Shown: positions 35,534-60,407 of the stretch, piece after piece
Numbering within the stretch: position 1 is the stretch's first letter
Layout of the letters: every line of letters starts with the position of its first letter
Origin: Gibbula magus
Taxonomy: Eukaryota > Mollusca > Gastropoda > Trochida > Trochidae
Assembly (NCBI GenBank): GCA_936450465.1
Contig: OW388291.1
Location: 34,076,656 to 34,140,655 of the forward strand
Direction of reading: 5' to 3'
DNA length: 64,000 nt
Program-made: the position numbers and the translations under genes
Notes under the pieces: model-generated
Database searches by the model: none
What the model was told of the DNA's origin: nothing
Seen by the model: only the letters and a program-made list of their open reading frames with translations

Positions 35534-36668
35534 TGTATGCCAATACCACCACTACAATTTACCACTAAGGAACAAAGAAATGCACACTATTCAAATTCAA
35601 AATGTGAAACAGGATCCAACCCTCTCCAGTGTTTATGGTGTAAAGGCAGATTCATGTTTGAACAAGCTTGACTACTTTCATGTCATAAATGGATTACCAT
35701 CTGATCTTGCCCATGACTTATTTGAAGGTGTTGTCTGTGAAACACTAACCAATGTTATTGTGCGTTTGGTTAATGAAGGTATTTTCAGCCTATCTGAGTT
35801 AAATAACAGAATTTAAAATTTTACCTTCTCAAACAATGATAAGTCAAATAAACCCACAACTCTTTCATCTCAAATCAGAAATTTCAAGGTGAAGCAAACT
35901 GTTGCACAGATGTGGTGTTTAGTTAGATTTTTTCCAATGATTGTTGGTGACTTAGTTCCAATGCAAAATCCTGTATGGAAAACACTCTTACTTTTGGAAG
36001 ATGTGCTTTACTATGTATGTGCACCTGTAATGGATCGAGGACATACCATGGTGATGAAGGACATCATTGAAGACTTCCATGCATCATTCCTAGAGAGCTT
36101 TCCAGGGGAACCTATCAAACCAAAGATGCACTTTATGTTGCACTACCCTGAACAGATGAAGAAGTTTGGCCCTCTCATTCATCTTCAGACAATGCGTTTT
36201 GAAGGAAAACATAATTACTTTAAAGAACTTGTCTAGTGGATGAAGAATAAGATCAACATTTGCAAATCCCTTGCTGTTAGACATCAATATTATCAGTTTT
36301 TATTTAACACCAACAGCTGTTTCTTAAGCTCAGGTCAATTCGAAACAACAGGTGATGCAATGGTGCCACTTTGTCTTTTGAAGGCAGAATATCAGCAAGT
36401 TTTAGCCAGGCATATAGATGATGACTCAGTGGAAATTTTCACATCAGCCTCTGTTCATGTTTTAGGAATCAAGTATCAGGTTGGTGACTGTATTGTGTGC
36501 AATGAACAGGACGATCACTACTATGCCTTTATTGTTGATGAGGATTGTTCTCAATGTGAACTTGTTAAAGTGGCCGACCTCAAAGATCCAAGTCCCTTAG
36601 GGACTTACAATCACCCAGTTCGACACGACCAGTCCGTTATTGTCATGAAACTCATGGTGTGCAGTTAG
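35534..36668 (+). pseudogene. Unit 1 ORF1: transposase-like pseudogene (C-terminal half)
   Basis: It is homologous to the C-terminal half of the ORF at 46662-49130. Shared landmarks are LPSDLAHDLFEGV against VQDPMHVFLEGI, and KMHFMLHYPEQMKKFGPL...MRFEGKHNYFK against the same pattern there. One frame runs from 35580 to 36668 with two in-frame stops (TAA 35814, TAG 36234), and a frameshift near 35580 joins TTKEQRNAH to it. The N-terminal half and zinc fingers are missing. The D-x-H-D/E-G and HYP-GPL-RFE-KH pattern recalls animal En/Spm-like transposases; that class is an inference. Confidence 0.75.
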
Positions 36669-36671
36669 TTC

Positions 36672-37290
36672 AGGTACAGTAAGGATTATATTAACGAACT
36701 ACCATCTCAAATAATCGGTAAGATCCGTCCATACCTCACCAAACCTGCTGCTCAAAAACTCACTGCATCCCTTATTTTATCCAGATTGAACAACTGTAAT
36801 TGTCTCCTTGTGAACACCACTAAAGAACTGATCAAAAGGTTTCAAACCCTCCAGAACACTGCTGCAAGAATCACCTCCAGATCATCAAAATTTGATCACA
36901 TTTCCCCAGTCCTGAAAGATCTTCATTGGTTACCTGTCTCATTTCGTATTGACTACAAAGTCCTTCTGTATGCCTACAAATGCTTCACAGCAATGCTCCA
37001 CCTCACCTCAATGAAATAGTCACCATATACTGTCCTCCGAGACCTCTGAGATCACAACAACAAAAGCTTTTCAGTGTTCCGAAAATTCAAATTTTTGGGA
37101 AAAGAACCTTCAAATATGCAGTTGCAGAAAAGTGGAACTGTCTACCTGAAACTCTCAAATCTGCCTGTTCCCTTGATTCATTCAAGGGGCAACTCAAAAC
37201 ATTTCTTTTCTCTAAAGCTTTCTCCTGCTAAGCGCACAGAGCATAGAACTGTGAATGATGCGCTATACAAATGCATGAATTATTATTATT
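36672..37290 (+). mobile_element. LINE (L2/CR1-like) 3' end
   Basis: It encodes the end of a reverse transcriptase ORF in two frames: LILSRLNNCNCLLVN, LQNTAARITSRSSKFDHISP, LKDLHWLPVSFRIDYKVLL, then LPETLKSACSLDSFKGQLKT. The 3' tail GCGCTATACAAATGCATGAATTATTATTATTAT is characteristic of L2-like LINEs. It is 5'-truncated, as usual for such insertions, and lies between ORF1 and ORF2 of unit 1. Confidence 0.85.
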
Positions 37291-37489
37291 ATATCTGAAA
37301 CTTGTTAGGTATATCATTTCACAAATGGTTGAACAAGTGATTTATTCACAAATTCACTAACATGTTTTGAGATCAACTTAAGAACTACACTAAATGTCAA
37401 TATAAATTTCAGAATTATATAATTTAGAAAAGAGTTTGCATTTGATTTGTGTCTACTTTGCTGTTGATTCATTGCTTTTGTTTTTTAGA

Positions 37490-40400
37490 AACAGACAAAA
37501 GATGGAAGAAAGGAATAAGAAGTTTCTATTAATCAAGTACAAGTCTTCCTCAAAGAAAATTGTGTTTACTAATGATCTTACTTTAACATTTATTGATGAC
37601 AACATAAAATCTAAATTCAACATTGAAAATGGACAATTACAATATTGGGACTCGGACGTCAGTGATTGGCTAGACTTAGATACAGAAAGCATAGATGAAA
37701 TAAAGGGTGAAAACATTGTTAAGGTGCAAGTTTTGTGTGACGAACCAGAGATCTAGACAAGTTGAAATAACAACCAGTCCGAGGAAACTGAACCAGCAAT
37801 AGTTCTTCAACCACCTCAGGAGAATATTGAAACCAAGCCCCTCCCCATGCCTAAAAAGAAGGAAGAAGACAAATCAACTGACAAAAAGGAAGTGGTCTCA
37901 GATTTACTTAAAAGGTATGTTCTATGAGCGTTTTTGCTTTCTCTGTGTATGGTTATTCTGATATTTCACTCATTATTTATTCATATCATTAACTTGTAAC
38001 AATCTGTTAACACCTGGCAATTTTATTATGGAATCAATGCGATGCACTATGGTAAACAATACAGACAAAAAAGTTCAAGATTAATTTTCAAAGTGGTTTT
38101 TTTTTCTTTTAGAAAGCCATGGCTGAGGTTGTATGAATTTCCTTCTGCAACTTGTCCCAAATCCCTCTTGTTGAAGTTGGAGACACACCAGGATTTAGCT
38201 AAGCGTGATGTCAGTCAGCTCTTGGAAACACTGTACAATGATGTCACATTGCATGAAGGTGGATTGTAAGTTTATTCAGTTAACTTGCTTTGGCATTATA
38301 TAGTTTTAGTTTATTTAACATACAATTATCAATCCTCCTTTCGAAGGTATATCATGGATTTGGATTTCTAGCTTAACATTATGATATTATGTAATATCCC
38401 TTTGAAAACATGTTCAACTGTTGATTTCAAATTAAACAAGAGAATTAGTGAGCACAGCTCACTCATGATACCCCCGCTTTTAACATTGGTCATAGATAAT
38501 TGTTTGAAAATAGCAAAAGGGCATCAATGTTTAAACTTTTGTATGAACGGACCATTATATATAAGTATTATAAAGCAGAGTAAGTATTACACTTGTAAGC
38601 ATGTTTTAGAAGTAAAAGTTGAAAAATGGCATTAAATGTGCAAATGAGGGTATGAAACATACAAATATGCAAATGAGGGTATGAAATATAAAAATGACAG
38701 ATGTACACATCAGTGGTTTCGTAACATTTGAACAATTAGTGTCTAAGTTATGAGTGGAACAAACAGTGTGAATGGCGAAGATGAAAAACGGAGAAAATTT
38801 GCATAAATTATGCAAATGAGGGTATGAAACATACAAAAGGCAGATGTACACATCATGGTGATTGTACATATCAAGTTTCGTAAAATTTGAACAATTAGTA
38901 TTTGAGTTATGAGTGGAACAAAAACTGTGAATGGCAAAGTCGAAAAACAGAAGAAAATTGCATAAATTACGCAAATGAGGGTATGAAACATACAAAAGGC
39001 AGATGTACACATCATGGTGATTGTACATATCAAGTTTCGTAAAATTTGAACAATTATTATTTGAGTTATGAGTGGAACAAAAAATGTGAATGGCAAAGTC
39101 GAAAAACAGAGATAATTTGCATAAATTATGCAAATGAGGGTATGAAACATACAAAAGGCAGATGTACACATCATGGTGATTGTACATATCAAGTTTCGTA
39201 AAATTTGAACAACTGGTTTCAGAGTTATGAGTGGAACAAAAACCTGACGGACGCACGGACGGACGTGCTGACCGCTATATACCCCCGACTACTTCGTAGC
39301 GGGGGTATAATAATTAGAATACAGTATAGTTCCAATTTAACTGAATAGTGTCATATGTTCCTGTATAGGTACCCTACTTCAGAGAAATATGGGACTCTGG
39401 TGGATGCAATCCTGACTTCATTTCCATATCTTGCCAAGCAGGGGGGTGACATGTCTCTTCTGTCAGTAAGGGTAAGTTAAATCCCTGGTCATTGTTTTGT
39501 GAGGATGAAAAAACATTGCGACAAAAATGTGATGATTCACTTATGGAAAGATTAATGCTTATAGGTTACTAACACTATTAAGATTGATTGTATTGTGTGT
39601 AATATAATTCAGTCCATATATGATGATATACTAAACTTGATTACATATATATTGTTATGAAATTCCTTTCTTGAGTGTTTGTTAAGGTTCATGTTCAAAC
39701 CTCGACTTTTGAGATTTGCTCAGTTTGTTTATCTTATAATTATATATGCAGGTATATTGGAAAGAAAAGCTTAAACAGAAATGGGGAAATGAGCGCAAAT
39801 CGAGGGACCGTGACCTCCCTGAGGTGAAGAGCAGAAAAAGAAAAATAGCACAGCAGAACTCTGAAACTCCTTCAAAGAAAATTACTTTGACCTGGGGACT
39901 GGCCAACTACCTCCCTCCACCATTATCCTCAGAAGATGACACATCACTGAAGCTTCACATTGAATGGTTAAAAAGAGAGTGGAAGAAGACAGAGCCAAAC
40001 ATCCCATCAGTAGAGCTGAAAATGAACTTAACATTTCCTCAGAGGCGGGCTGATGTCATCACCCATGGGTTGAGTGTTGCTGAACTGTTAGAAAAATATC
40101 CATGGCTAAGGAGTAGAGACCAGGTAATAGGAAATATGTATTATATTTAGTCATCTAAACTCATTCATCTTGTTCCTGATACTGTGGTTTGATGTATACA
40201 AGGTGAATTTGCCTTATTTCACATTTTATTTTAAAGAATATTGTCTTCATTCACTAGTCACATTTTAAAGTAATGTGCCTCCTCTTATATAATCAGATTT
40301 TAAATCTATATTCCAGTTGCTGGCAGAATACACCAGGCTCGGCCCAAATACCACTATAAACAACATGGACACGCTATTAATGGATGGCATGGACAAATAT

Positions 40401-41126
40401 CATGAGACTATTACACATTTGGCCAAAGGAAAGAAGATGGCGAAGTTTATAGAGGACATCTATGAAGAGATGCTTCTCCAAAGAGTGGAGACGCAAAGAA
40501 AATGTAAGATAAATGCATTCAGTTTTATAATGGACATTTACTGAGCAAAACAATTTTTTTTTACCTGTATAGTCTATTGTCAATTTCATGAAAAGTCAGT
40601 CTCAAAGGTATTTGTGTATTCATGTTACTCATCTATAATGCATTTTCTATTTTTCATGATAGTCATTTTGATATAAGTTTGCTTATTGTCTCAAATTTTG
40701 TACATTCAGACACTCATCATAAGGTTTCTATTCTACTTAAACAGATTCGAGCAAATGTGCAGCTATCTTTGGATTGGGGACTTTATTGAAAGAAAAAATT
40801 GAAAAGATTGTTGCAATCGGAGAGAACCACCCAGATGAAGAAGCTGCAATAAAGAAAGTCATGAAAGAAAGGTAACAACAACTGACCTAGAAGCATTTGA
40901 AATACACATAGAAGGTGTATCACTATTTAAATGTGAAACCTTCATGGAAGCTGTGGCAGGACTGATGGCTAGCATTTATACAATGAACTTGGCATACCCA
41001 AAAGTATGTGAAAAAACATTGATATTTATACAGAATGTGGTACTCGGTTTGACTGATGAGAGGCAAGCGGACAAACGAATCATATCTGTTCTCTCAGACA
41101 TCAACAAAGCAAAGAGAATGAAGTAA
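37490..41126 (+). pseudogene. Unit 1 ORF2: SAMD3-like protein with ubiquitin/PB1-like N-terminus
   Basis: Exons are 37490-37914, 38113-38265, 39369-39471, 39752-40123, 40317-40503 and about 40746-41126, with consistent splice sites and phases. Translation would start at 37502 just after a TTTTTTAG acceptor. Residues 1-84 look like a beta-grasp (PB1/ubiquitin-like) domain. The part after 38113 has the pattern LYPTSEKYGTLVDAILTSFPYL ... YWKEKLKQKW seen in SAMD3-like animal proteins. The C-terminus (MASIYTMNLAYPK) aligns with that of the intact gene at 49187-57276. The gene is broken: in-frame TAG (37754) and TGA (37763) and a one-base deletion at about 40875. The intron after the second exon contains a pearl-like element. 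Confidence 0.75.
38455..39312 (+). mobile_element. Pearl/Helentron-like element with 159-bp core repeats
   Basis: The left end is the hairpin GTGAGC-AC-AGCTCAC followed by ATGATACCCCCGC. The right end is the hairpin ACCCCCG...CGGGGGT with loop ACTACTTCGTAG. Core repeats beginning GCAAATGAGGGTATGAAACA lie at 38812, 38971 and 39130 (159 bp apart) plus a divergent first copy at 38640. AATTAG occurs at both edges. It lies in an intron of the ORF2 pseudogene. No protein; reverse-strand ORFs through it follow the repeat. Confidence 0.8.
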
Positions 41127-44377: not shown

Positions 44378-44752
44378 CACTAGGCAAAAAAAGAAATGCA
44401 TAGGTGAACCTTCTTTTTCAAATTTATTTTTTTATTAAATACTGTCATGATTATGACCTGAATGTCTAGGGAATATATGTTTATGTCGTAAACATTAAAT
44501 TGGAATACCTAAACGCAACATCATGTGAATGATCACCAAAATACAGTGATTTCGATACAAAATCATGACAAGTGCGTGCTGAAAAAGTTGTCAGCATGTT
44601 GCACGTGCATCACATGGGGAATTACACTTGGCAGTGGTGAGTATAAAAGGGAGGCAGTCCGACATTGAAACACTTGCAATCAACCCCGGAAACTGAAAGT
44701 CAAAATGCCGAGGTTAGATCTTGCAGCCCGGAACAGAGCCATCGGACGTCTA
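44378..44752 (+). mobile_element. Tc1/mariner-like element, 5' part only
   Basis: It begins after TA with CACTAGGCAAAAAAAGAAATGC, a Tc1-like terminal repeat, and holds a TATAAAA box at 44642-44648 and a start codon at 44705. The 16 codons (MPRLDLAARNRAIGRL) match the N-terminus of Tc1-like transposases, which open the DNA-binding domain. It is cut at 44752 by the CACTG end of the large element; no continuation is seen at that element's other flank. Confidence 0.8.
44642..44648 (+). promoter_or_regulatory. TATA box of the Tc1-like gene
   Basis: TATAAAA lies 57 bp upstream of the transposase start codon, a normal distance for a short leader. Confidence 0.5.
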
Positions 44753-45790
44753 CACTGTAAAATTGCTGAACACCAGACGTGTTCAATATTAACACATGTC
44801 GTGTTTAATTTAGTAACACTAGTGTTCTTCCTGTGCACACGCATATTTTGTGGTGTTTAGATATAAACATGCATGTTCAAGTTATGAACACGTGTGTTCA
44901 TCATACAGACAATAGGTGTTCTCTTTTTTAACACTACATTTTCAAATATTACTTATTACTTTCGAATCTGAAACAATTTTTCAAAAAAGTGTGTTTGTTT
45001 GCCTGTGGTAAGTTTTCAAAAGTTTAATTTTAAATTTTTTACCTAATCACAATTTTAGAGTATGTTACCTTAATTTCAAGGGGTTAACAAATCAAATTGT
45101 GTTCAGACTTTTTTTAACAACTTTGTCGGAGCACAATTACTTAAATAAAAACCGCTGTTCATGGATTACTGCACATTTTCAATTAAAAAAACGTGGTTAT
45201 TAGTTTACCCATTGCAGGCTTGAACACCTGTGTTCTGCGTTTGAACACCGATGTTCAAATTTACCGCTCCAGACGTGTTCAGTATTAACACATGTCGTGT
45301 TTAATTTAGTAACACTAGTGTTCTTCCTGTGCACACACATATTTTGTGGTGTTTAAGATATAAACATGCATGTTCAAGTGATGAACACGTGTGTTCATCA
45401 TATAGACAATAGGTGTTCTCTTTTTGAACACTATGGCATAAATTTTCAAATATTACTTATAACTTTCGCATCTGAAATAATTTTTCACAAAAGTGTGTTT
45501 GTTCATCAACCTGTGGTAAGTTTTCAAAAGTTTGATTTCAATTTGTTTACCTAATCATAATTTTAGAGTACGCTACCTTTAATTTCAAGGGGTTAACAAA
45601 TCAAATTGTGTTCATACTTTTTTTAACAACTTTGTCGGAGCACAATTACTTAAATAAAGACCGCTGTTCATGGATTATTGCATATTTTCAATTAAAAAAG
45701 CGTGGTAATTAGTTTGCCCGTTGCAAGCTTGAACACCGGTGTTCTGCTTTTCAACGCCAGTGTTCAAATTTTCCCGCTCTTTCGAAAGTT
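44753..45790 (+). repeat. Duplicated left subterminal region
   Basis: About 44768-45270 and 45271-45790 are tandem copies of ~500 bp, with CCAGACGTGTTCARTATTAA at the start of each and CGCTCTTTCG/CGCTCCAGACG at their ends. Each holds GTGTTCA/TGAACAC words in both orientations. In En/Spm the equivalent repeats bind TnpA; that role is inferred here. Confidence 0.8.
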
Positions 45791-46661
45791 CTTAACCCAA
45801 GATGCAACGCGAACAGGACGGAAGTTAACTTGGCGAAGCAATTCGAACACGGTGCAGTCTACTCCAAAAGCTGCAAAGAACGTTTGGTCACTTCTATAGA
45901 TTCCTTAGCTACAACGAGGTATTTTTAATTTCGATTCGTAGATCTTTAAAGTGCTAATTATGTAAAGCTTGATTTAAATCGTCGTTTCCATCGTACATTT
46001 ACACATTTTGTGGCCCAAACGTCAACCATGTATAATGAACGTCTGAAGCTTGTGCCATATTGGTAGATTGACTTGATTGATGCTATTTCCAGTTACAATT
46101 GCAGGTTGATTAAATGTAGAATTAATAATTTCCTAATTTCATTGAAATTGTGTTCGTTGGATCCTTTACTATCCAAATTCTTTAAATTTGTGAGAGGTGA
46201 CCTTGAACCTCAAAACTACTAGACCCAGATTTTCGAAGCTATCTTAGTGCTAAGATAGTCGTAAGTGCCATACATACATACATACATTGACTTACGACTA
46301 TCTAAGCACTAAGATAGTTTCGAAAAAATGGGCCCTAGGCGTACTGAATTAGTGGTTAGGTTTGCTCAAAAGGTCAAAATGTAGGTTAGGTCTAATTGAC
46401 TGTGATACGTTTAATGGAATTGCTTATCCTACTGAAATTTAAATGCACGTTTTTTTTTAAAAATAAGGTCCTCTAGAAACATTACAAACCGGCACATCAC
46501 TGTGGACTTTTGCTAAAGTACAATGATTGTATCAGAGTTATCATTCACCAGGACCCTTTTATGCAATATGTCATAATTCATTGAATTTATTTACAGTGAA
46601 CACGTGGTAGGCCTAAATGCAGAAAGTAGTTTGCTTGTTATTTTGCATTTTATTTGCAATT
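45791..46661 (+). other. Leader region of unit 2
   Basis: No protein is recognisable. A possible non-coding first exon ends at 45918 (GAG/GTATTT). An acceptor TTATTTACAG at 46596 lies shortly before the ORF1 start, so ORF1 could be reached by splicing. A hairpin MITE sits at 46220-46337. Confidence 0.4.
46220..46337. mobile_element. Hairpin MITE
   Basis: The arms TAGACCCAGATTTTCGAAG-CTATCTTAGTGC and GCACTAAGATAG-TTTCGAAAAAATGGGCCCTA are inverted repeats, each continuing into CTAAGATAGTCGTAAGT / ACTTACGACTATC. The loop is a short CATA microsatellite. The element folds almost end to end. Confidence 0.8.
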
Positions 46662-49130
46662 ATGGATGACGAGCAATTCATGTGCAATTTATGCTGCTTT
46701 GGGACAAACTTGTGGAAAGAATATCAGCATCACTACATAAGACTGCACAAAAATGATCCTAATTTTTCAGTAACTTGCACTATTTGATCATGCTCTTACA
46801 CCACTCGTACATGGAACAGTTTCAAAGTTCATGTTCATCGCAAACACAAATTCACAAATGAAGTACATGTTGAACAAAATTATGATGATATGGATGTATC
46901 TGAAATTGGTGAAACTGATAATGAAATGACCCACTTCCAACCTGATCAGTTAGTTTTTCAGAATTCTTTGTATGCAATGTCTCTCGAAGCAAAACATAAT
47001 ATATCACAGAGTGCTGTGAATGACATAATCTCTTCCACAGGACTGTTAGTCAATGCACAGCTTGATTTCTTCAAACAGAAAGTTGCAAAAGAACTGGAAA
47101 ACAGAAGTATTGATCCATCTTTCATTTATGAAATACATGTTGATCACTTACTAGATGATTTTGATTCAGCCAGCAAGAGGTTTTCATTCTATGAAAATTG
47201 TTCAGACCTACCTTATGTGAAACCTGTTGATGTGGTTTTAGACACCCGCTATGTAACAAAAAAGGGTAGACTAATTGAGCAAGAAAGACTTGGTTATTAC
47301 ATTCCCTTAAAGGAATCTTTGAACAAGTTGCTAGAGCTACCAGAGATATGGAACCATGTTGTCAATCCTCACACATCCACTGATGAATTCCTATATGATT
47401 TATGTGATGGTGAGTATATTCAAAGTAACATTTTGTTTAAAGAAAACCCACAAGCATTACAACTGCTTTTGAATACAGATGACTTAGAAATAGTGAACCC
47501 CCTTGGCTGTCATGTTAAAAAACACAAAATCACTATGTTCTACTATTTACTGGGAAACATCCCTCCGCAATTCAGGTCAAAATTGAGTGCAATTCAATTA
47601 GTTGCAATTGCAAGGACTAAAGATGTCAGAGAAAATGAAGGAATTGAAAGACTCTTACATGACTTTTTACAAACTTTGAATCAGTTGTCAAGTGATGGTG
47701 TAGAGTTCATAATCAGTGGGTCATCACAATTGATTAAGGGAGCTTTGGTAGCGGTTCCAGCAGATACATTAGCATCAAACTGGCTGGGAAAGTTTAAGGA
47801 AGGTGTAGCATTTGCACGAAAGAATTGCAGAATGTGTGAAGTGTCTTCTTTGGATCTGAAGAACAGAGTTATTGATCACCAGTGTCAACTGAGAGATGAG
47901 ACTGAGCACTCAAGGCGTTGTACCTTTATCGATGAACTCTCGAAAGGCAGTCGGAGGTACTGGAGCAAATTGTGGGGGATAAATGGAAAAAGTTGTCTGA
48001 TGGGACTTACAAACTTTTCAATCACATCTGGATTGGTACAGGACCCCATGCATGTATTTTTGGAAGGAATAGTTCCTCGTGATTTGGGTCTTCTATTATT
48101 TCACTTGACTGTCACCAAAAAGTATTTTACTTTGAAGTGGCTGAATGATAAAATAAGGACTTTTCCTTATTCATATTTACACCTGTCAAGCAAGCCAGAA
48201 GACACATTTGACAAAGGGGATCTTGACTGTTGTACAAGGGTCAAACAGTCTTCTTCATCACTTTTGACACTGTGCCAAGTCATTCCTCTGATTGTCGGCC
48301 CAAAAGTACCCTTTGGAGATGAAAATTGGATTAATTTCCTGAGACTTGTCCAAATTGTTCTGCTCTGTACGAGCTCCTACTGCCACAGAGACACTGCATC
48401 CTTACTGCGGATATTGATTGCAATTTTTCTTGAGAAAAGTAAAGAACTGTATCCAAAGTCATCTTTCATACCCAAAAAGCACTTCATTATACACTTTCCA
48501 AGGCAAATGATCATGTTTGGGCCCCTGAGGCACCATTGGTGCATGCGTTTTGAAGGGAAGCATGGTTTTTTCAAATCCAAGAAAGTGAAAAACTTCAAAA
48601 ATCTTCCTTACTCGCTTGCTCGGCACCACCAACTGTACATGTGTTTGAAACAAACAGGCATTAAGGGTGAAATGTCAAATAACTTTCTCTATGATGGAGA
48701 TTCTGTCCAAAGAGGTGAAGAAATAAATTTCACATTCAAGTATCCCAATCTCAGACAAACAATGGCTGATTTGAGTCAAACTGAGCCAGTTGAGGAGTGG
48801 ATGATGTATAGCACACAATCTGTGTCCATACATGGACTTCATTACAAGACTGGATGTGCTGTTGTCCTGGAATATGACAATGATGTACCTGTTTTTGCCA
48901 TTTTGAGAGACATTGTTGTTTATCACAAAGAAAAGTACTTCATCCTTGAAGGTACAAATGTACCATCTTTTTTCAGTGAACATATCCTTCACTACATTTT
49001 GGTACCCGATCAAACAGAACAATTGATATCCTTTCAAAATCTCAAGTTTAAGTGGCCACTCAGTGTGTACATGTACGATGGAAACCTTGTCACGATGAAT
49101 TCTAATTCACACACTTTCCAACTGTTTTAA
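46662..49130 (+). CDS. Unit 2 ORF1: zinc-finger transposase-like protein
   Basis: Intronless, 822 codons from ATG 46662 or 746 from ATG 46890. The N-terminus has two C2H2 fingers: C-x2-C-x12-H-x4-H (MCNLCCFG...HHYIRLH) and C-x4-C-x12-H-x4-H (TCTI*SC...KVHVHRKH). The single in-frame TGA (46785-46787, codon 42) falls between the two Cys of finger 2. Of the 746 residues, a Cys/His cluster CRMC...HQCQ...C lies near 312-350, DPMHVFLEGI near 385 and KKHFIIHFPRQMIMFGPL...MRFEGKHGFFK near 527-562. These last motifs are shared with the decayed copy at 35534-36668 and resemble animal En/Spm-type transposases; DNA transposition is therefore the likely role. Everything after codon 42 is open. Confidence 0.75.
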
Positions 49131-49186
49131 ACTCAAAATAACAGCAATTTGTTCTTAGCAAGTTGAATTCTTTTTAGAACAACAAA

Positions 49187-52100
49187 ATGCCTTTGTTTAA
49201 ACTATGGAATAACACAAGAAGCCTGAGGAAATGTGTGCTGGCCAAATCCTTGGAAGAACTAAAGAAAAAAGGTAAATAACTTTATTTTATGCCATGTTAA
49301 TAATTGTCTTATACAAAATGAATCATATTATAAATGAATTTAATATATACCCATGTAAGCTAAGGATAGTAAGGGATGTGCAATATTTTTGCAATACAGA
49401 TAGTGTAATACAATTATTGCAATATTGTTTTTAGCTAAGGTACATAGCTCTGACAGACGTCAGAGCTATGGAGCAGCCCCATAGGCCCCAATGGAGGAAT
49501 TCCTTTGTCGCACTTTCGCGCACTTGTTACGACTTTCGCGCATGAATAAACCATTGAAATGTCTTTATTGCATTAATAGCTATCCGTCTGCCCCATTTTC
49601 GCTCGTCAAATCTCAGGAATAATATACTTTCTAAGCCATCAAACATCGCAGTCGATGCTTCGATAAGCGCGTCGCCATACTGCATCACGTGATACCGGGG
49701 ATCCCCTTCTTAAAATAGATCAACTCGCGTGATGCACCAAGACGATACACGTTTGACAAGAGAATATAAAACTACCCGGGTCGGTAAATTACTCTTCTGT
49801 TGATTACACTCATTTATTTTACTAGTGAATATATTATTTAACTGGCGAGTAAAATAAAATAATTATGTAATCGTTTTGACTCAATATGCTGAAAATTGGA
49901 TTTAATGTTTTTTTAAAGCAAAACAAGAATCACATATTCATAAAATACAAATAAATTCAAAACCAATTTATTCTATAAAATATATGTGTATATTATAAAT
50001 TTGTGTTATTGAATTATGACTACGAAGTGAACCGTTGTACATCTGTATTAAAGGAATTTTGTAAAATGGTAATTATAAAAGATATCCTAAAAGAGTTCTC
50101 TTTGTAAACGATGCAATGGCATCTGCTTTGATGGTTCATTTTCAACCCCTTAAACATGGTTGTGTTTTTTTTCCAACTCTATGCTCATTATATGACTTTG
50201 TTTATATGTGTACCTCCAAAATATAAAAAAAAAATCTACAATAAATGTATCACACACATAAAAAAGCAAAATATTCATGTATGTTATGGTGGATGTTCTA
50301 TGCAATCTCTCTTATATATCTACTAAATTGCTTGTTTTCCGAGACTTTGTTTTACGTCTCTATGTGTTACCTTCAACAGAAGAATCAAAATAAAAATCCA
50401 AAAAAATTCTTATATTATTAGAAATGACGCTAAGGATTTAAACTGAAAACTAAACGCACTTACAATGTGAAGTCATGCTTATGGTTTAAACGTATTTATT
50501 TACCGAATGATGGGTTTGGCAAACAAGAGTGAACTCTTTAATGTCTGGAAAAAATATTTTGTAAGACAAAAATAAACATGGCCCCTTAAAACAAACCTCG
50601 TCAAATTCATAATGACAATTATCCCATTTGATTGTTAATTGTTGATAATGACGGCTAGTCATAGTATATTGAAACTATTTCATGTGATTATTCAAGGAGT
50701 ACCCAGAGAAAAGGCCCTTTACTTTCCCTGTGGACTTTTAGAAATAGTTCGATAATAATAACAATATATCTATATATGCATAGCGCATAGTTTCAGGCAG
50801 GCGATTATTTCAGACGTATTTGACATATAGGTGAATCTAATGTAAGGTATTCCAATTGTTTAATATATCCAATTAAAATATCATGGTATCTATACGGTTT
50901 AAAGAGTTCGATTGGGAGATTTTATCATAACAATACGCATATATCCAATGAAACTTAAACGGTATATTGCAGACTTTTCAATGTTTTCATCGTGTTCGTA
51001 ATTTAAGGAAAACGCAATATGTTGAGAAAGACCCCGTTGTCTTTCCTCAGATGAAGTTCAAATATACAAATGTTAGTTTATTTATGTATTTAAAGCTTAT
51101 GAAGAACAAATAAAACGTTTGTAGTCTTGTCTTCTGCACCTTTTCCAGATTGAAAAAACAACATTTGATAGCGGTATCATCCGTCAGTCTGAACTTAATC
51201 AATCTCATCAGAACAGTGCTTTTATACTTTGCAACCTGTAATGTATGCTAAAATTTGGGGAACGATTTCATAGACATTGCATCTGCTGTTTGGCCTTTAC
51301 TCTTTTAGTCTATGACTAAATTCTCAACTCAAATACGATTACTAGTAATTAACCAGGGGTAGAAACTAACCTGAAATGGTCACTAGCCTTTTGGGCCAGT
51401 AGCTTTCAGATCCTACTAGCCCAGCCAAAGTTCTTCTATCCCAGTAACAAACAGACAGGAGACGTAGAAAACAGATTATTAATAAATGATTTGCTTTATT
51501 GCAAATTCAGAAAATCTCTTTTAATTTCAAATTATTAACTCATTTCACTTCAATATTATTATATTCCCATTTACTAGTATTGGCTCGAATTTTCAAAGAG
51601 GGGCCGCGTGGGGTCAAAATTAACCTTTCAATGCAGTAGCATTTCTAAAAGTACTATCCCAGCACAGGAACTCAATATCGATAAGTAAAACATAGGTAAA
51701 ACGTAGGTAAAATAAACCTACCCCCTATATTATATATCAACCCGGGTAGGTTTGTTTTACCTATGTTTTACTTACGATATCGATTTCCTGTGTAGTCCAG
51801 ACTTATTCCAGCTAGCATAAAACATCTCCATGATCATTTCACCTCAAATTTTAACTCGTCCTTTGAACTACTGTTATAACGCGAGACGATTGAAATATTT
51901 TGAAATTATGGATTAGGCATGGTGTTAATCTTTAATACGCACATGTTATCCTACACATTAGCTTTCTCTCTCATCAATTAACAAATTGTGTCAAAACTAA
52001 AAATTAACAATTTACATTATTTCCAAACGTCAACGTTTTGCATAAATGACGTAACATAAAATTGAACAATGAATTTCATTCCAGTATGATTTCAGAATCT

Positions 52101-55100
52101 GAAGACTTATTTCTGTAAATTATCTTTAGATTATTACATCTTAACATTATTATCAGTCATGGTATTATTATAAAATATATCTGTTGTACTTTTAAAAAAA
52201 GATTATTTCATACTGAGCTTTTTTTTTTACAAGTAAAATATTAAATTGGAGTTAGCTGTGAACAATATATAATTTACACGAAGGAAGCTGGACTCTATAA
52301 AGCATTAGTTAATCATAGTTTAATTATATCAATGTAAATCAATTTCGATCATTGTTGAACGGGTGCATCACGCGAGTGGATCTATTTTAAGAATGGAATC
52401 CCCGGTATCACGTGATTCAATATGGCGACGTGCTTATCGAAGCATCGACTGCGATGTTTGATGACTTAGAACAAATATATTTCCTAAGATTTGACGAGCG
52501 AAAATGGGACGGGCGGATAGCTATTAATCCAATAAAGATATTTTAAAGGTTTGTTCATGCGCGAAAGTCGTAACAAGTGCGCGAAAGTGCGACAAAGGAT
52601 TTCCTCCATTGGGGCCTATGGGACTGCTCCATAGCGGTAATGTAGTGGAAACGATAGGGAGAACGGAATACCGATATGTTCTCTTAGCTATATTGTTTTC
52701 AGTGAGCAATATAATGAAATTAACTAATATCAAGTCATTTTTATTCAAATCACGGACTTAAATTACATTAAGTCCGTGTTCAAATATAGTGTTTTAAGGC
52801 ACAGTTACATGCTAAATGCGCAGAAAAATTATTTTGGTGTAAAGAAAATGTGTTAGGCTGTTAAAAGAATGAGATTAGAATTTTTAAAATATAAAAACCG
52901 TCATTTACTTGCAAATTTTATCCTTTTTTGAGTAGGATGCATTTTATCAAATGAATAATATCTAAACTGCATACAAAAAAGTACAAAAAGTTGATTTTAT
53001 TACTCGCCCGTGTAAGATTTCACCAGTGTAATTGTGTAATATTTATGTAGAGACTATTAAAAGTGTATAATATTTTTTGTATATCAGTATCATTGATTAG
53101 TATCATATATTAGGAATATGGCGAGCATAATACATCTATTTTTATTCTTAAAGTTAATATATGATATTATGACAACACACAAGGTAAATAATCTCTTTAT
53201 CATGTAATATCATTTTGGAAATCATCTTCAACTGTGACCTAATTTTTACCAAGTAATTTTATTCACAGTAGACCACACCAAGGTGAAGGTCACATTGTCG
53301 GATATATATGGAAATAATCCATCGTAAAATATTTCTTAAAGGGTATATCCATGTTTCCTAAAAATCTGATATTCAGTTAATTTATGGTTATATTTTTATC
53401 CTAAGTCTTTTTGAAGCCAACAGCGCTGCAAAAGGGGAAGTAACTCTTAACCATATTCATAAAAAGCTGCGTTGTCATGGTTGTTTCGCTTGTCTGTATC
53501 CTTAGACTAAACAGTGATTATTTACGAAGGTGGGATTGTTTCATTTGTTATTCACATACAAGATAACATGTTCCATCACTCGAAAGCATGATCAAAGATA
53601 ATGATTTGTTCAGTCGACCACACGAAAACTGAAGCTCATTTCTAACAGTATTTCATGTACATTTTCCGATAGTGGCTGGATGTTGTTGGTTCTTTGACCA
53701 GACTCTTTTATGTATTTTTTTGGTTTCCATTTACAGGTTGTGAAAAGCTTGGCATTTCTGGAGATGTTCTCATTGTGACATCAAATGATGGGACTGAAAT
53801 TGATGAGGATGAAACGTTGCTTGAATTTGGCCAGCTTGCGGAGGTACTTGTCCTCCTCAGAAGTAATGAAACTTGGGCACCGCCGATACCAGTCACTACA
53901 GCTGAAGAGGTTGAAAAGACAGCATCCCTTGATCACATTCCAGAACAAGCAAACCAGGAAGATCGAGGACCTGATCCAATGAATCTCCTAAGTTTAACCT
54001 TACAATCAGAAGGTATGTTGACAAGCTTTGGCCTTCTATTGTAGTCTCATTCATCTAAAATTTCAGGACTGCGGTTTACCTAATTTTTTTGTTCAAGGTG
54101 TGATTTTATGTGAGTATGTACTCCGAAACGTTGTATATTTTCACATTTAATAAGTTGTTATCCAGAAAATCTTCATGTTCTTATGGATACCACTTCTAAA
54201 TGCCCTTCAAAGACCTGATGCAAAGATTTTATTATATAATAAATCAATCATTGAAAATGTGGCTTTTCTTGACAAATACCTTGTTTATCTCATCTCATGA
54301 GTCGTGAGGTAAACAATTTAAATATCCCTTGTACCCGCACCACATGTGATGATATAAACTCTCTACTTCATGAGATGAGATTAACATTGTATTTGTTAAA
54401 AAAAAAGCATAAAATATCCTCTAATATCCATGTTACTTGATAAAGTAAACCGGGTATTTGACAAACTCAATTAAGTATCCTCTAGTCTATGTATTTTATG
54501 CACTTGGTAATAACATTTAATTTAAATTCAAGTTGAAAAGAAAAAGAGGAACAAAAAGTTAAATATTTAAATTTTGGGACAATTTTGATCACTTCTTTAA
54601 TTGCTTTAACATTTTTATTTCAGAAATGGTTAACACAACTCCAGCCAATATCCCGCAAAGGATAAAGATTGAAGATTTGCCAAGGTACTCTGAGCTGGTG
54701 CTGAGGCACCTTAGAGATGGATCATCAGAAGTAATTTGGAACAAGTTGATCAACGAAACGGCTCAGCACTATTACGGGAAGTACTTGCACATAAACGACT
54801 CCAGTCACTACAAGGCTATCGGAGAAAGAGTTTATGCTGCGTGGCCCTGCATTAGAATGGAAGGGACTCATCCATGGGTTAGTAATTTTACGATTATCAT
54901 CATGTGTATATTATAGATAATATATGTCTTTTCAAGGAGCATGATTGCACAAGTTGTTTTCTTGAGTAATGTTTGCATTAGCTTAAAAAACTTGTTAAAA
55001 ATGTTTAGATTATGAAGGTGACATATTAGTATTTCTATTCATGCCAAGCTAAAAGTCTAATGTAAATACATTGAAATAATGAATATATAATATCTTTGTT

Positions 55101-57276
55101 AATATTATGCAATATTGTATCTTTTATTACAGACAACATTTGTCAAGCAGCTATCTATGAGGATCCGACACATGCGTCATAGCGCCAAGATTAAGAGCAG
55201 CCCTGCCACATCATCAACCCTGCCGCCACCCAAAAAAATCTTTACATCTCCAAAGAGAGATACAAATCAGAAAGAACTGAGCGAAGAAGATGTAAAAGCC
55301 CATGTGAAAGAACTAAAAGATGAATGGACAAAAACCAAAAAGAACCGTAACGTTTCACACATCAAAATGCTTCTAAAGGAGACTCTCCCATACAGAGACA
55401 GTGTGCTAAAAAATAGCAAGACACTGGTCAGCGGGATCCTTGAAGAATTTCCTTGCTTCACAGATGCTCTCTTTGTAAGTTTTTTCTATCTATTCAAGTT
55501 GTCTGTATAAAGTCTGGTTGTGGTTGTAAATGTTAGAGAAAAGGCTCCATACTTTTATATGTCTGACTCCAATTAATGGCAATTATTGTAAGTATAGCAT
55601 GTGTTTGAATGAAGGCGGATTTGAAATAAAGGAAACATTTTCAATCAATTAAACAGGTCGATGCAAATAATAATAAAAAATTCCAATAAATTGTCTTAGT
55701 GAACTGCAATACGTAATGTTTTTTTCCAGTTGCTATGTGAATTCAAAGCAAGATTTGGAGCCGAGAAGTTAGTTGCTCTTTCTGAGAACATGAAGAGGGT
55801 TGTGGTAGCGTGTCACAAATTGATGAAGAAGGAGACGTCTGATGAGCCCAAAGAGGAGGTACTGTGTATAAATATCAGTCAAAATCTTCATTCATCATAA
55901 CCATGATGCGCATGAATATGTTTTATTTTGACATGACATGTTGAACCTTGTTATTATTTTGAAGCATTCCTCCCTACAATAGATCATAGTTCAAAATACC
56001 GTTATATATCTGTGCATTTTTTGGGTTGTACCTGATTTTTTTGTATCACCAGAGTCATGGAATTATGCAATCTGAAGCTTCTTTGACAAATATGTGTTCA
56101 CTTATCTCTTGTTCGATACTGAGCTCGTTTGTTTGGCACTTAAATTGAAGATCTTGCCTTTGGAAAATAATGCTCTGAAAAACAGTTCTTCTCCCTTATA
56201 TGTACACTCATTGTTGACCAAAACAACCCCTCATTATCTATATGCTTTATCTCTAGGGAAATATGTGACTAATTAAAAATTAACGAATATTTCCACTAGC
56301 TTACACTGACATTTTATTTGAAACAGGACACAAGAGCAATGGTTGATGTCATCCGATTTATTGAGCAAGAAACCAAATTTGACAGAAGTGGGAAAGGGAA
56401 CACTCCAAACGCTCATTTCAAGACACTTGTTCAAGTACATGATGTAAGTGATAGTGAATTAAACAATCTGTTTTATCATTACTGAAATGAATGAGTGGCT
56501 AATTTATCAATCATCAAGAAAAACTTTAATGTAATCCTGTAAATACATTAAGATAATGTTGCTATTAAATTCATCTGAGCTATGTATACCTGTATGCAGC
56601 TTCAAATGATTATCTGCGGGTAACAGTTTTGATTTTCAATTTTACCTTGTGAATGATTGACTCCAGAGACCTTAAATTTTATTTACATTGATTACCTTGG
56701 CCCAAGGGAACTGTAAAATTGTAGACTTCATGATTATTGCCCCTACTATTAAATGGCCACGCAAAAAAACCCTTCTCTAAAAACTATGTTAAGTCCTAAA
56801 AGGTTGAATGTCATTTCAGGATCCTTAGCTTTTGGGATTTGGTGCTCTGGTAGCGCTTTATATGGGTATCCTGTAGCCTCTTTTTATGTATTATATAAAG
56901 CCTGATGAGAGCCATTTATTGTATGTTTTCCTTTTTACAGGATGTTGCAGATTCTGACATTGGAAAAATGTTGATAACCAAGCCGATGGAAGCTCCTCAT
57001 GTCATCGTTTTCACCAAAAATCAAGTTGTGAATGGAATGTTCATCGTTGGAGATGGCTGTTCCATTCGCTGTCAAGGCAGTAGTGTCACTTCCTCAGTTT
57101 TGCAACTCATTAGCTTGTACTACAACTTTGATATTGAATATCCCAAGTGTCATGCAATGGTTCTTGGTCTCTTCCAACAATTTGCCTTTGGAGAGCCATA
57201 TTCGATGCAAACATCCAAAAAATTCAAGTTCTTTGTCCATAGATTCAGACCAGTGTTTGAATCTACCGAACTGTGA
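49187..57276 (+). CDS. Unit 2 ORF2: CIDE-N domain fused to SAMD3-like protein
   Basis: Seven exons: 49187-49271, 53737-54012, 54624-54877, 55133-55474, 55730-55858, 56327-56443 and 56941-57276. All phases match, giving 512 residues without a stop. Residues 1-75 form a CIDE-N (CAD) domain: FKLWNNTRSLRKCVLAKSLEEL, then DVLIVTSNDGTEIDEDETL and VLVLLRSNETW, matching the conserved R-x-x-x-LxEL, EDGTxVD and L-x-x-x-x-W pattern of DFF40/DFF45/CIDE proteins. That domain makes head-to-tail homotypic contacts. Residues ~120-300 (VIWNKLINETAQHYYGKYL, SSHYKAIGERVYAAWPCI, FVKQLSMRIRHMR) follow the SAMD3-like pattern of unit 1 ORF2. ATG lies 10 bp after a TTTTTAG acceptor and 56 bp after the ORF1 stop. Host CIDE proteins lack the C-terminal part. 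Role unknown; a DNA-binding or assembly partner of ORF1 is inferred. Confidence 0.85.
49465..52635. mobile_element. 3.2-kb element with ~274-bp terminal inverted repeats
   Basis: 49465-49738 and 52362-52635 are inverted copies starting GCTATGGAGCAG and sharing GCGCGAAAGTGCGACAAAG-like words and CCGGGGATYCC. The interior has no long ORF. Long TIRs recall MULE-type non-autonomous elements, but no target duplication is evident, so the class is open. It lies in intron 1 of the CIDE-N gene and makes that intron 4.5 kb. Just outside the left end is a perfect 12-bp hairpin (CATAGCTCTGAC / GTCAGAGCTATG). Confidence 0.78.
51663..51792. mobile_element. Foldback MITE nested in the 3.2-kb element
   Basis: CACAGGAA...ATATCGATAAGTAAAACATAGG on the left is complementary to CCTATGTTTTACTTACGATATCGATTTCCTGTG on the right. 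The centre contains the palindromic GGGTAGG/CCTACCC. Short and non-coding. Confidence 0.78.
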
Positions 57277-59234
57277 GAATCAGCCATCAACATTGTTGAT
57301 CTTTTGACTTACCTGCCTTGTACAAATTTTTATTTGATTCTATTGCCGTGCATATGTTACTAAGGACACCTGTGTATTGTAGGCTTTAAAGTGGTGAGAT
57401 GATATATCCCGATACCAGTTAATGAAGCACCCAGGGACCTGTAATCTGATTGTAATTACAACTTGACAAGTTGCGAGACAATACATGCCCAAATACTCTA
57501 CAAATAAAGAGTTTTAAAGACAGTAGAATAGATAAGGCATAAAAAGGTTTTATTGAACAGAAGGAATGCAATATTTCCTCTTTTAGTGAAGTTAAAACTT
57601 TAATTGTCATTGACATTATAGATGAATGGATTTAATAAAATCAGTGAATCTAATGTGCAGACATAAATCTGAAATATTATTTCTTCAATTTGTCTGATTA
57701 CCTCCAGTCTAACTTGAGTGAAAAAAATACTTCAAAAGCTTTTCAAACTATACAATATATTGTTAAATATTATGGAATAATATCGGGATATATCTTCTCT
57801 TGGCTATATATTGATGTATCAAGGACTCTCTTGTAAGTCTTGTGAATTTATTGCCTGTTTTGGATAGATCTTTCTGAAACTTGGTACATCCTTGAGTACC
57901 TTGGGTATACATACATCAGTTATGCACATGTTAAGATTAATGGTGGTGCAGCAATGATGCCTGTTGTGCTCTCAGAGCACTCTTACTGCAGTTTGTATCT
58001 TTGATACATTTGAACAAAAGTATGTTATTTGATTTCCCTATCAAATATAAAATAATTGAATTGACTCGTTAGGGTCAAATATCCTACCGTATCAAAGTGA
58101 ACAGTTGCAGCCTTTCTTCCCATTCAAACTGACTGGCAGTGACTGAAGCTGTTAATATTTTTGGATTTTAATAGAATTTAGTTTTTGTATTCCTCGGACT
58201 AATTTCCCATGTTTTCAATGCACTTTCTTTAATTGCATTGCATTGCATTGAATCCATTTGAGCTTTAGGAATGCATAATCTCTTCCTAAGAATAATCATA
58301 TTGAAGCATGATATTCTTTTTTTTATGATTTTTTCTATTATGATATCCTAATGTTCACTAGAAGAATAGTATTGTGAAAGATATATGAGTGAGCTTTATT
58401 ACCTCAGGATTTGGTTTTCATTTCATTTAATCCCCTTTTAAGCTCATACTAAGTAGTATCTCATTGAGCCCAATGTCTTCAAGCAATAAACAAAAAAACA
58501 ACTACATTTGATGTTTATGCACACACCAGTCAGTATTGATATTTTGATCTCTTTTTGCACTTTCTTTGTTTTTCAAGAACACATTATATCTTATTTATCT
58601 TTGCCTAAACATTTGGTTACAGTTTACTTGTATACTTGTCATTTCAACTTGCCTTTTATTCCAATGTGTGACAGCAGTTTCAAGGTCAAAAGGCTTGTTT
58701 CTAAGTAAATATATCATATTCGTTTCATTATGTTGTCATCGCTACTGTTTCAAATATAACCCAACTCAATTCACTCGACTTGTTTCGTTATTGTTGGGGG
58801 TATAATGCAATGTTAGTGACCAACACTTGTTTGTTGGATTGTTGTTTGTTATAATGCAGATTTTATTTTTATTTAAATGTTGTTGTTATATCTGTTTATT
58901 GTATCTGGCATAGTAAAGTGTTATACTGCTGCATGTTTTTTAAGGACATAATTGAGGTTTTCATATTGATGCACAATGCCAAAGAAAAATAGTATTGGTG
59001 ATTCCACTTGCTTCTTTGACTGATATTACAGTAATAGACAAATTATTAATTTCAGTAGACACTTTTCTTGTATTTCTGTCAAACAACTGCACAGTATATA
59101 CCCATATATGCATGTAATGATCTGAAACAGTAATGTTGTCTAGTTGTTGTCTTGGTTTAAATCAAATAAATAATTGAAACCACATGTTTATTGTTTTTCA
59201 GTTTTTAAGTTTCATTATTTTAACACTGGGTATG
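57277..59234. other. 3' flank of the CIDE-N gene within unit 2
   Basis: No protein is recognised. Around 57840-57985 the words GATAGATCTTTCTGAAACTTGG and the hairpin GTGCTC-TCA-GAGCAC look like a pearl/HINE core-repeat fragment. The rest is A+T-rich. Confidence 0.45.
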
Positions 59235-59711
59235 CTTTCTGCTATGGCGTTAAAGATGATGAACATGAAATGTTCTAAGTGATCAACATTTGGTGTTCAA
59301 GATGATAAACATCAGGTGTTCCAAGATGATAAACATCAGGTGTTCAAGATGATAAACATCAAGTGTTCAAGGTGATGAATGTTAGTGTTCAAGATGTTAA
59401 CATTATGTGTTTATGAAGTGTTCACTTTTGTAACACCCAGGTTTTTAAACATGTAAAAGTGTTCAAGAAGTGTTACATGGCTTTGAACATGTAAATGTGT
59501 TAACATTTTGAACACTTGGAGGTGTTCAAAAGTTGAACACTATGTGTTGAAATGGCGTTCCGCTATGAAACGCTTGGTGTTTAAAATTGAACACCTGGTG
59601 TTTAAAATCGAACGCCTAGTGTTCAACTTTGGAACATCTATATGTGTTCAAGAAGTGTTACAATTAAGTGTTCAAATAGTGTTCATTCCCTGAACACTTG
59701 ATTTTACAGTG
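59235..59711 (+). repeat. Right subterminal GTGTTCA array
   Basis: Fifteen GTGTTCA/TGAACAC words occur between 59292 and 59699, most in a longer AAGTGTTCAAG context and in both orientations, ending with the terminal ATTTTACAGTG. This mirrors the left end and supports one element spanning both. Confidence 0.8.
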
Positions 59712-60350
59712 TGTGTTTAGGCCCAAAGATAAGGATCAAAGTCCAAAGTCTGAATCTGTAGAGGATATTGACATTCAGGCAACAAGTGAACTGTCAGACT
59801 CCTACATAAGCTCCTCAAACCTAAGGAAACAACAGCTCCTTGATCCAGAAATCAGCCTAGTCATCTGTCATCAGGAACAAGAATGACTTGGAAGGAAAGA
59901 AAGAAGAATTCAAGAACAAAAGCACTAGCACAAGAATGGAAGAACTTGGAGAAGATGAAGTCTTATACAGAGTCACAAGTCTACATGGAACAGAGCGACA
60001 ACAGATTGTATTGCCGTCTACATACCATGATAAAGTTTTCGAAGAACTTCACAACAAGATGAGACACTGTGGAACAGAAAGAGTCGTCTCCATTGCGAGA
60101 GAATGCTTCTACTGGCCCAAAATGTATGAAGACATAGAGACTTACATTACAAAGAAATGTTCATGTATCAAGGACAAGACCACATTTCAAGACATGTGCA
60201 CCAATGAAATCGATAGAGACAACAGAACCGTTTGAACTTATCGGCATAGATTTTGTGCATCTAGAAAGGAGCAAAGGTGGATATGAATATATCTTGGTTC
60301 TATATCTTCGCCCAACCCGGGACATCCCCCTCGGCCACACCACCACATGA
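59712..60350 (+). pseudogene. Ty3/Gypsy pol fragment (integrase N-terminus)
   Basis: The frame around 59888-60180 shows the integrase zinc-binding pattern H-x-H-x(n)-C-x-C (LHNKMRHCGTERVV...FYWPKMYEDIE...KKCSC). After a frame change near 60190 the start of the catalytic core follows (PFELIGIDFVHLERSKGG) with its first Asp. A stop at 59884 separates an upstream piece, and similarity ends near 60300. Reverse transcriptase and the LTRs are not here. The hAT end CAGAGGTGCC begins at 60352. Confidence 0.75.
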
Positions 60351-60407
60351 CCAGAGGTGCCAACCACTCCGATTTAGGCGGAGTTACTCCGATTTTACAG
60401 TGAAAAC

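Follow-up and report, generated by a model that had tools for sequence, protein, structure and literature searches.

How does a domain of the cell death machinery come to lie inside a mobile element, and what may the element use it for? CIDE-N is a self-assembling domain of proteins that cut DNA in dying cells, and the question is raised by a locus of the gastropod Gibbula magus, whose genome has 1.47 Gb. In a stretch of 64,000 bp (C3:34076656-34140655, called the window below, to which coordinates without a contig name refer) an initial annotation had pointed to a CACTA-like transposon with a CIDE-N gene, and had offered two explanations: capture of a host exon pair, or a transposon protein that uses CIDE-N for its assembly. 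According to our analysis, positions 44753-59711 on the forward strand are one two-gene animal transposon of the CACTA (En/Spm) superfamily, 14,959 bp long, in which a transposase frame (open reading frame 1, ORF1) is accompanied by a second gene (ORF2) that begins with a CIDE-N domain. Both explanations are favoured: a host gene is the likely source of the domain, and the element may make use of its assembly.

A CIDE-N gene between CACTA ends

The predicted ORF2 consists of seven exons and six introns, all of them GT-AG, which join into a single frame of 512 amino acids that is open throughout, as had been annotated. Exon 1 (49187-49271) encodes the initial 28 residues of CIDE-N and exon 2 (53737-54012) the remainder together with a linker, the intron between them being of phase 1; exons 3 (54624-54877), 4 (55133-55474), 5 (55730-55858), 6 (56327-56443) and 7 (56941-57276) follow, all on the forward strand. 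A codon model derived from ORF1 scores the exon frames above the other five frames in 6 of the 7 exons, exon 6 being the only one with a better-scoring alternative, and also above the introns. The Pfam profile assigns ORF2 residues 4-75 to CIDE-N (PF02017, positions 4-75 of 76), the joined exons 1 and 2 reaching E 4.2e-17, or 62.4 bits against a curated cut-off of 23.5, the 512-residue protein 5.5e-16 and the exon 2 frame alone 3.8e-5; the rise from 24 to 62 bits on addition of exon 1 supports the predicted splice. Sequence matches in the PDB at E ≤ 1 all belong to the CIDE family (11/11 and 12/12), the best of them being DREP2, and a search with the whole protein, where the best 8000 candidates were scored, returned one match, a Folsomia CIDE-N protein. 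Pfam recognises no second domain in ORF2 above cut-off, and unlike members of the DFF and CIDE families the protein shows no DFF-C, CAD nuclease or CIDE-C match at E ≤ 5; a protein search with residues 408-500 gave 7 candidates and no match.

The element is bounded by perfect terminal inverted repeats of 11 bp, CACTGTAAAAT on the left (44753-44763, forward strand) and its counterpart on the right (59701-59711, reverse strand), which have the CACT(A/G) start of the superfamily and are identical in five other genome copies. The sequence CACTGTAAAAT occurs once in the window, at 44753, and ATTTTACAGTG twice, at 59701 and 60392; the 11-mer at 60392 was discarded as a right end, no array preceding it. 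Arrays of the motif GTGTTCA had been reported at both ends, and its excess there is large, about 0.35 motifs being expected at each. On the left (44753-45800, 1048 bp), where a unit of about 500 bp stands twice in tandem, GTGTTCA or TGAACAC is found 14 times, against a mean of 0.34 and a maximum of 2 in 200 dinucleotide shuffles; the right array (59234-59711) includes 23-bp repeats, and 15 motifs are counted in 59200-59711 (512 bp; shuffle mean 0.37, maximum 3). The 13.4 kb between the arrays contain 3 motifs (shuffle mean 2.6), and the 1.8 kb read on either flank of the element none. Such subterminal arrays, characteristic of CACTA elements, are present too in the copies C9, C13a and C13b described below.

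ORF1 (46662-49130, forward strand), with two C2H2 fingers at its N-terminus, is a DDE transposase of RAG1 fold, as its homology and predicted structure show. It has 75 homologues at E ≤ 0.001 among 2432 candidates; in an alignment of 20 rows, which includes 19 of the 75, residues D231, D326, E589, C347, C350, H565 and H569 are invariant, and the AlphaFold model (predicted local distance difference test score, pLDDT, 84.7) has the RAG1/Transib fold, in agreement with the Tnp2-type DDE transposase of the superfamily. The annotated transposase-like character is thereby borne out, but the frame is broken in the window copy by an in-frame TGA at 46785-46787, between the two fingers, after which 780 codons are open. 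Two other genome copies have an open frame of 837 amino acids at ORF1.

The 21-bp left end recurs at 8 places of the genome, its reversed control at none, and 20 kb were read at each of the 7 places outside the window. CIDE-N exons stand between matching ends at 4 of the 8 (the window, C8, C9 and C13:40.83 Mb, here C13b), so the association of CACTG ends with the CIDE-N gene withstands the genome search that the initial annotation had proposed; the other 4 places are devoid of CIDE-N exons and retain later ORF2 exons. Copies C8, C9, C13b and C13:5.61 Mb (C13a) align with the window element from its first base (1) to its last (14959). Full length and both ends are found in C8 (17.1 kb, with an insert of about 5 kb near the left end) and C9 (15.0 kb), whose ORF1 is 99.7% and 99.9% identical to that of the window over 780 residues, and in each of them all seven ORF2 exons are present, with 512 uninterrupted residues and every splice site. 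C13b has both ends, a partial ORF1 and ORF2 exons 2-7, while C13a and C11 have both ends (in C11 a right end that aligns, besides the 21-bp left end) without CIDE-N exons. The two remaining places, C1:32190018 and C1:32220854, lie 31 kb apart, have no CIDE-N and end imperfectly on the right; because both flanks are common to them, they are probably old deletion derivatives of one insertion that was copied by segmental duplication. When the genome was searched with ORF2, CIDE-N exon 1 was located at 4 places, with family ORF1 upstream each time, and exon 2 at 5. The fifth locus, at C15:31.08 Mb, belongs to an older copy in which remains of family ORF1 lie upstream, and no element ends were found in the two stretches read there; 4 of the 5 CIDE-N loci of ORF2 type thus lie between matching ends.

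Short target-site duplications are a further mark of the superfamily, a duplication of 2 bp being described for the animal element SmTRC1 (passages of PMC1636069) and one of 3 bp for plant CACTA elements (passages of PMC4158355). As read off after the fact, 2 bp are duplicated (TG, TG, TG, CA and TA) at all 5 other copies whose two ends are complete, and 3 bp at none, whereas the window copy, flanked by TA and TG, has no duplication. Its flanks resemble fragments of two different mobile elements, so one of them may be rearranged. The left flank (44379-44752) resembles the start of what we take to be a Tc1-like element, and in the right one (59712-60330) a retrotransposon integrase zinc-binding domain is recognised (E 8e-12).

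Source of the CIDE-N exons

A genome-wide search with the CIDE-N Pfam profile (E ≤ 0.001, 15 candidates scored) revealed at least four exon matches in two host genes on C17; not being exhaustive, this search missed the split exons of the transposon itself and may have overlooked further genes with a split CIDE-N. One of the two genes is DFFA-like: a DFF-C piece lies downstream in it, at a score below cut-off (E 4.6e-4). With frame and GT-AG as guides, the intron within its CIDE-N falls in a glycine codon, G|GT, in phase 1, and in the alignment the CIDE-N intron of ORF2 has the identical glycine codon and phase; in the other host gene the intron is of phase 0 and lies some codons later. In Dffa of amphioxus and vertebrates, too, the CIDE-N is described to contain a phase-1 intron (passages of PMC2426694). 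Because ORF2 and the host DFFA-like gene are split in the same codon and phase, we consider it likely that the domain was captured, intron included, in the form of genomic DNA of a host gene of DFFA type, in accordance with the first of the two explanations. The identity of the ORF2 domain to the DFFA-like gene (47%) and to the other host gene (36%) is too low for a recent donor to be named, and nothing in the element matches the intron of the DFFA-like gene significantly (best match 22 nt, E 0.46).

A possible role in transposition

The place of the domain in the protein becomes clearer from second genes of other CACTA elements. A separate element in the window, here called B (35559-41123, forward strand), is a decayed and distantly related CACTA with remnants of ORF1 (tblastn 2.5e-32) and pieces of ORF2. 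Five other families, picked for long ORF1 frames from 45 ORF1 matches, were read downstream of ORF1; by eye, second genes were recognised in four (C12, C10, C11 and C15:63.73 Mb, here C15b), and no clear ORF2 in the fifth (C3:25.2 Mb). The core of window ORF2 in exon 4 recurs in the second gene of element B (0/1000 shuffles reach the score; BLAST E 1.3e-6) and the C-terminal domain in exon 7 is like that of B (1/1000), exon 5 alone being unlike its counterpart (946/1000); the core of B is similar in turn to the second genes of C10, C12 and C15b (0/500 each). A possible splice acceptor AG (49176-49177, forward strand) stands just 5' of the ORF2 start codon, and element B and the C12 and C10 families have a comparable AG shortly 5' of their ORF2 ATG. 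The N-termini of these genes form two classes, one with B, C10 and C12 and another with C11 and C15b, and that of B does not match CIDE-N (502/1000). As related cores have different N-termini in other families, CIDE-N appears to fill a variable slot, and ORF2 looks like the standard second gene of the family, with a conserved core and a C-terminal domain behind an exchangeable N-terminal module. Pfam gives weak hints for two of the other N-termini (Ubiquitin_2, E 0.015, in C10; SAM_TNK, E 0.12, in C11) and none for C12 and C15b. In two of these families the second gene starts with a stretch of SAM-like appearance (L072:2293-2571 and L073:2194-2481, both on the reverse strand), the Pfam hint being weak (E 0.12) for one and absent for the other.

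ORF2 as a whole is under purifying selection. Between the window and the C15 copy, over five of the seven exons (1-4 and 7), we count 13 synonymous changes in 268 sites and 13 nonsynonymous in 974, a ratio of rates (omega) of 0.27 with Fisher p 0.001, and omega is ≤ 0.44, on few changes, against each of the seven other copies. Like Drosophila DREP2 and animal DFFA (PDB 4d2k; passages of PMC6292858), ORF2 has the CIDE-N sequence, the DGT motif and both charged faces. The residues K13, R22 and K23 on one side and D56, E61 and E64 on the other, which are named for the filament interface of DREP2 (PMC6292858), correspond in the alignment to K5, R14, K15 and D46, D51, E54 of ORF2, all of the same charge, and it is by this correspondence to DREP2 that opposite basic and acidic faces are recognised; DREP3 is described to polymerise via the same kind of opposed faces (PMC8647176). 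Because the charged positions are conserved, the frames intact and omega is low, the use of CIDE-N assembly by the transposon, the second explanation, is favoured as an inference.

We suggest, with moderate confidence, that this two-gene CACTA element encodes in ORF2 an accessory protein similar to TNPA of maize, which would bind the element ends and be assembled via the captured CIDE-N. In such a mechanism ORF2 would occupy the GTGTTCA arrays at both ends, CIDE-N would join many ORF2 molecules head to tail via the opposite charged faces, and the coated ends would become paired and then be passed to the ORF1 transposase. The TNPA-like role is suggested by the position of the gene and by the related second genes. 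A wider and more tentative idea, in which we place less confidence, is that exchangeable assembly modules polymerise the second protein on the arrays in different families, possibly ubiquitin-like ones (B, C10, C12), possibly SAM-like ones (C11, C15b) and, in the window element, the captured CIDE-N; if true, transposons would build the transpososome with filament-forming domains recruited from host proteins of cell death and signalling.

Several observations weigh against the proposed mechanism. Pfam recognises no DNA-binding domain in ORF2. Compared directly, the core of window ORF2 is modestly similar to that of C12 (3/500 shuffles reach the score), weakly to that of C10 (17/500) and not at all to that of C15b (394/500); it is joined to these three cores via element B. 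No fold can be assigned with confidence to the other N-terminal modules (pLDDT 59.4 for the N-terminus of B alone), the profile of the B class, compared with CIDE-N, gives no significant match (probability 0.8 percent), and the window CIDE-N against the N-terminus of C10 is borderline (27/500). Few changes underlie the selection signal of ORF2: in the CIDE-N exons by themselves there are 3 synonymous and 4 nonsynonymous ones (omega 0.39), too few for selection to be judged. The C15 copy carries a stop in ORF2 exon 7, and for ORF1 the comparison with the C15 copy yields no signal of this kind (omega 2.09, 156 codons). The interface residue K9 of DREP2, finally, falls outside the aligned stretch.

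The conserved charges could also be read as counter-defence, in which the ORF2 domain would attach to DFFA or DFFB of the host and dampen the apoptotic nuclease upon the DNA breaks of transposition. Partners do exist in the two host CIDE-N genes, one of them with a DFF-C piece downstream, the positions that mediate CIDE contacts are the ones retained in ORF2, and for CIDE_N frames of betabaculoviruses an interaction with host DFF was proposed by the authors (passages of PMC5245865). We hold it unlikely nevertheless, as ORF2 has a long core and a C-terminus, whereas the viral proteins have 91-111 residues (one has 185), and as related second genes of the G. magus genome have no recognisable CIDE-N. 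The domain might, on the other hand, be a mere passenger, acquired by chance and of no use to the element. C13a and C11 agree with this, having both ends and target duplications without CIDE-N (the exons could have been lost after insertion), and the CIDE-N exons by themselves have too few changes for a selection signal; yet all 3 full-length copies (window, C8 and C9) have these exons undamaged and in frame, they are conserved in the older C15 copy (83 of 83 aligned nucleotides in exon 1 and 266 of 276 in exon 2), and the omega over five of seven exons is that of a constrained protein, so that a useless passenger seems quite unlikely to us.

The same comparisons bear on the direction of transfer. 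If CIDE-N were an old module of the element itself, with host and transposon domains sharing an older origin and possibly a passage from transposon to host, one would understand that the identity of the ORF2 domain to the host DFFA-like one does not exceed that of the host gene to a springtail (48%) and a fly (47%) protein, which leaves no recent donor visible, and that the element contains nothing that matches the host intron significantly. But CIDE-N is not seen in five other ORF2 N-termini, which form two separate sequence classes, and the domain is widespread among animals within DFF genes (passages of PMC2426694), which makes such an origin very unlikely. That ORF2 is part of a host gene flanked by chance CACTG ends, or that the unit is an assembly chimera, could be supposed from the unlike flanks and missing target duplication of the window copy; this is refuted by the five copies with identical ends and 2-bp duplications (by chance about 1/16 each), two of these five being full-length and on other contigs, and we regard it as next to impossible.

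Relatives and wider meaning

Some features of the locus stand apart from the CIDE-N domain and the assembly role proposed for it. Intron 1 of ORF2 contains a nested inverted-repeat insertion of about 3.2 kb with 274-bp arms (about 49465-52639), which is absent from C8 and C9; a possible GGTA duplication accompanies it. Rfam gave no match at gathering scores. Scans of IMG/VR with an ORF1 homologue, the ORF1 alignment, ORF2 and a two-core alignment found no relative, and the terminus pattern matched 10 viral contigs there. Among GTDB genomes one contig (QNXQ01000014.1, in an Aquifex bin) has a CACTA transposase frame of 844 codons, with no ORF2 seen; since the frame is of animal type, this is probably contamination.

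In maize En/Spm, TNPA binds the subterminal motifs, and to our knowledge it contains no CIDE-N. With its TNPA and TNPD that element resembles the window one in having two proteins, a transposase and an accessory protein, and motif arrays at both ends (roles partly from PMC1636069). SmTRC1 of Schistosoma is likewise comparable, with a CACTA-type transposase, terminal repeats and more than one protein product, and 7 of its 14 copies have the 2-bp duplication, against 5 of 5 other copies here; it differs in its first bases, CCC, and in shorter proteins without detectable similarity to other animal or fungal elements, and the passages on it mention no CIDE-N (PMC1636069). The betabaculovirus MyunGV#8 also has CIDE-N in a parasitic genome, in its ORF38, according to passages of PMC5245865; that is a small viral protein, while in ORF2 the domain is the N-terminal module of a transposon second protein. 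In two Hydra genomes CIDE-N is over-represented (10 and 7) and discussed beside transposase domains, in passages that do not place the copies in transposons (PMC7642931); some of these may be further transposon second genes.

The initial annotation knew of no transposon that encodes a CIDE-N, and none was found by us among open-access papers, subscription papers and Repbase reports being outside this search. If CIDE-N works here as it does elsewhere, the pairing of transposon ends would include its polymerisation as a step open to test, and the second gene of animal CACTA elements would gain a concrete handle. The finding points to domain traffic between the apoptosis gene family and mobile DNA, and suggests that mobile DNA may be able to borrow filament-forming parts for its own use.

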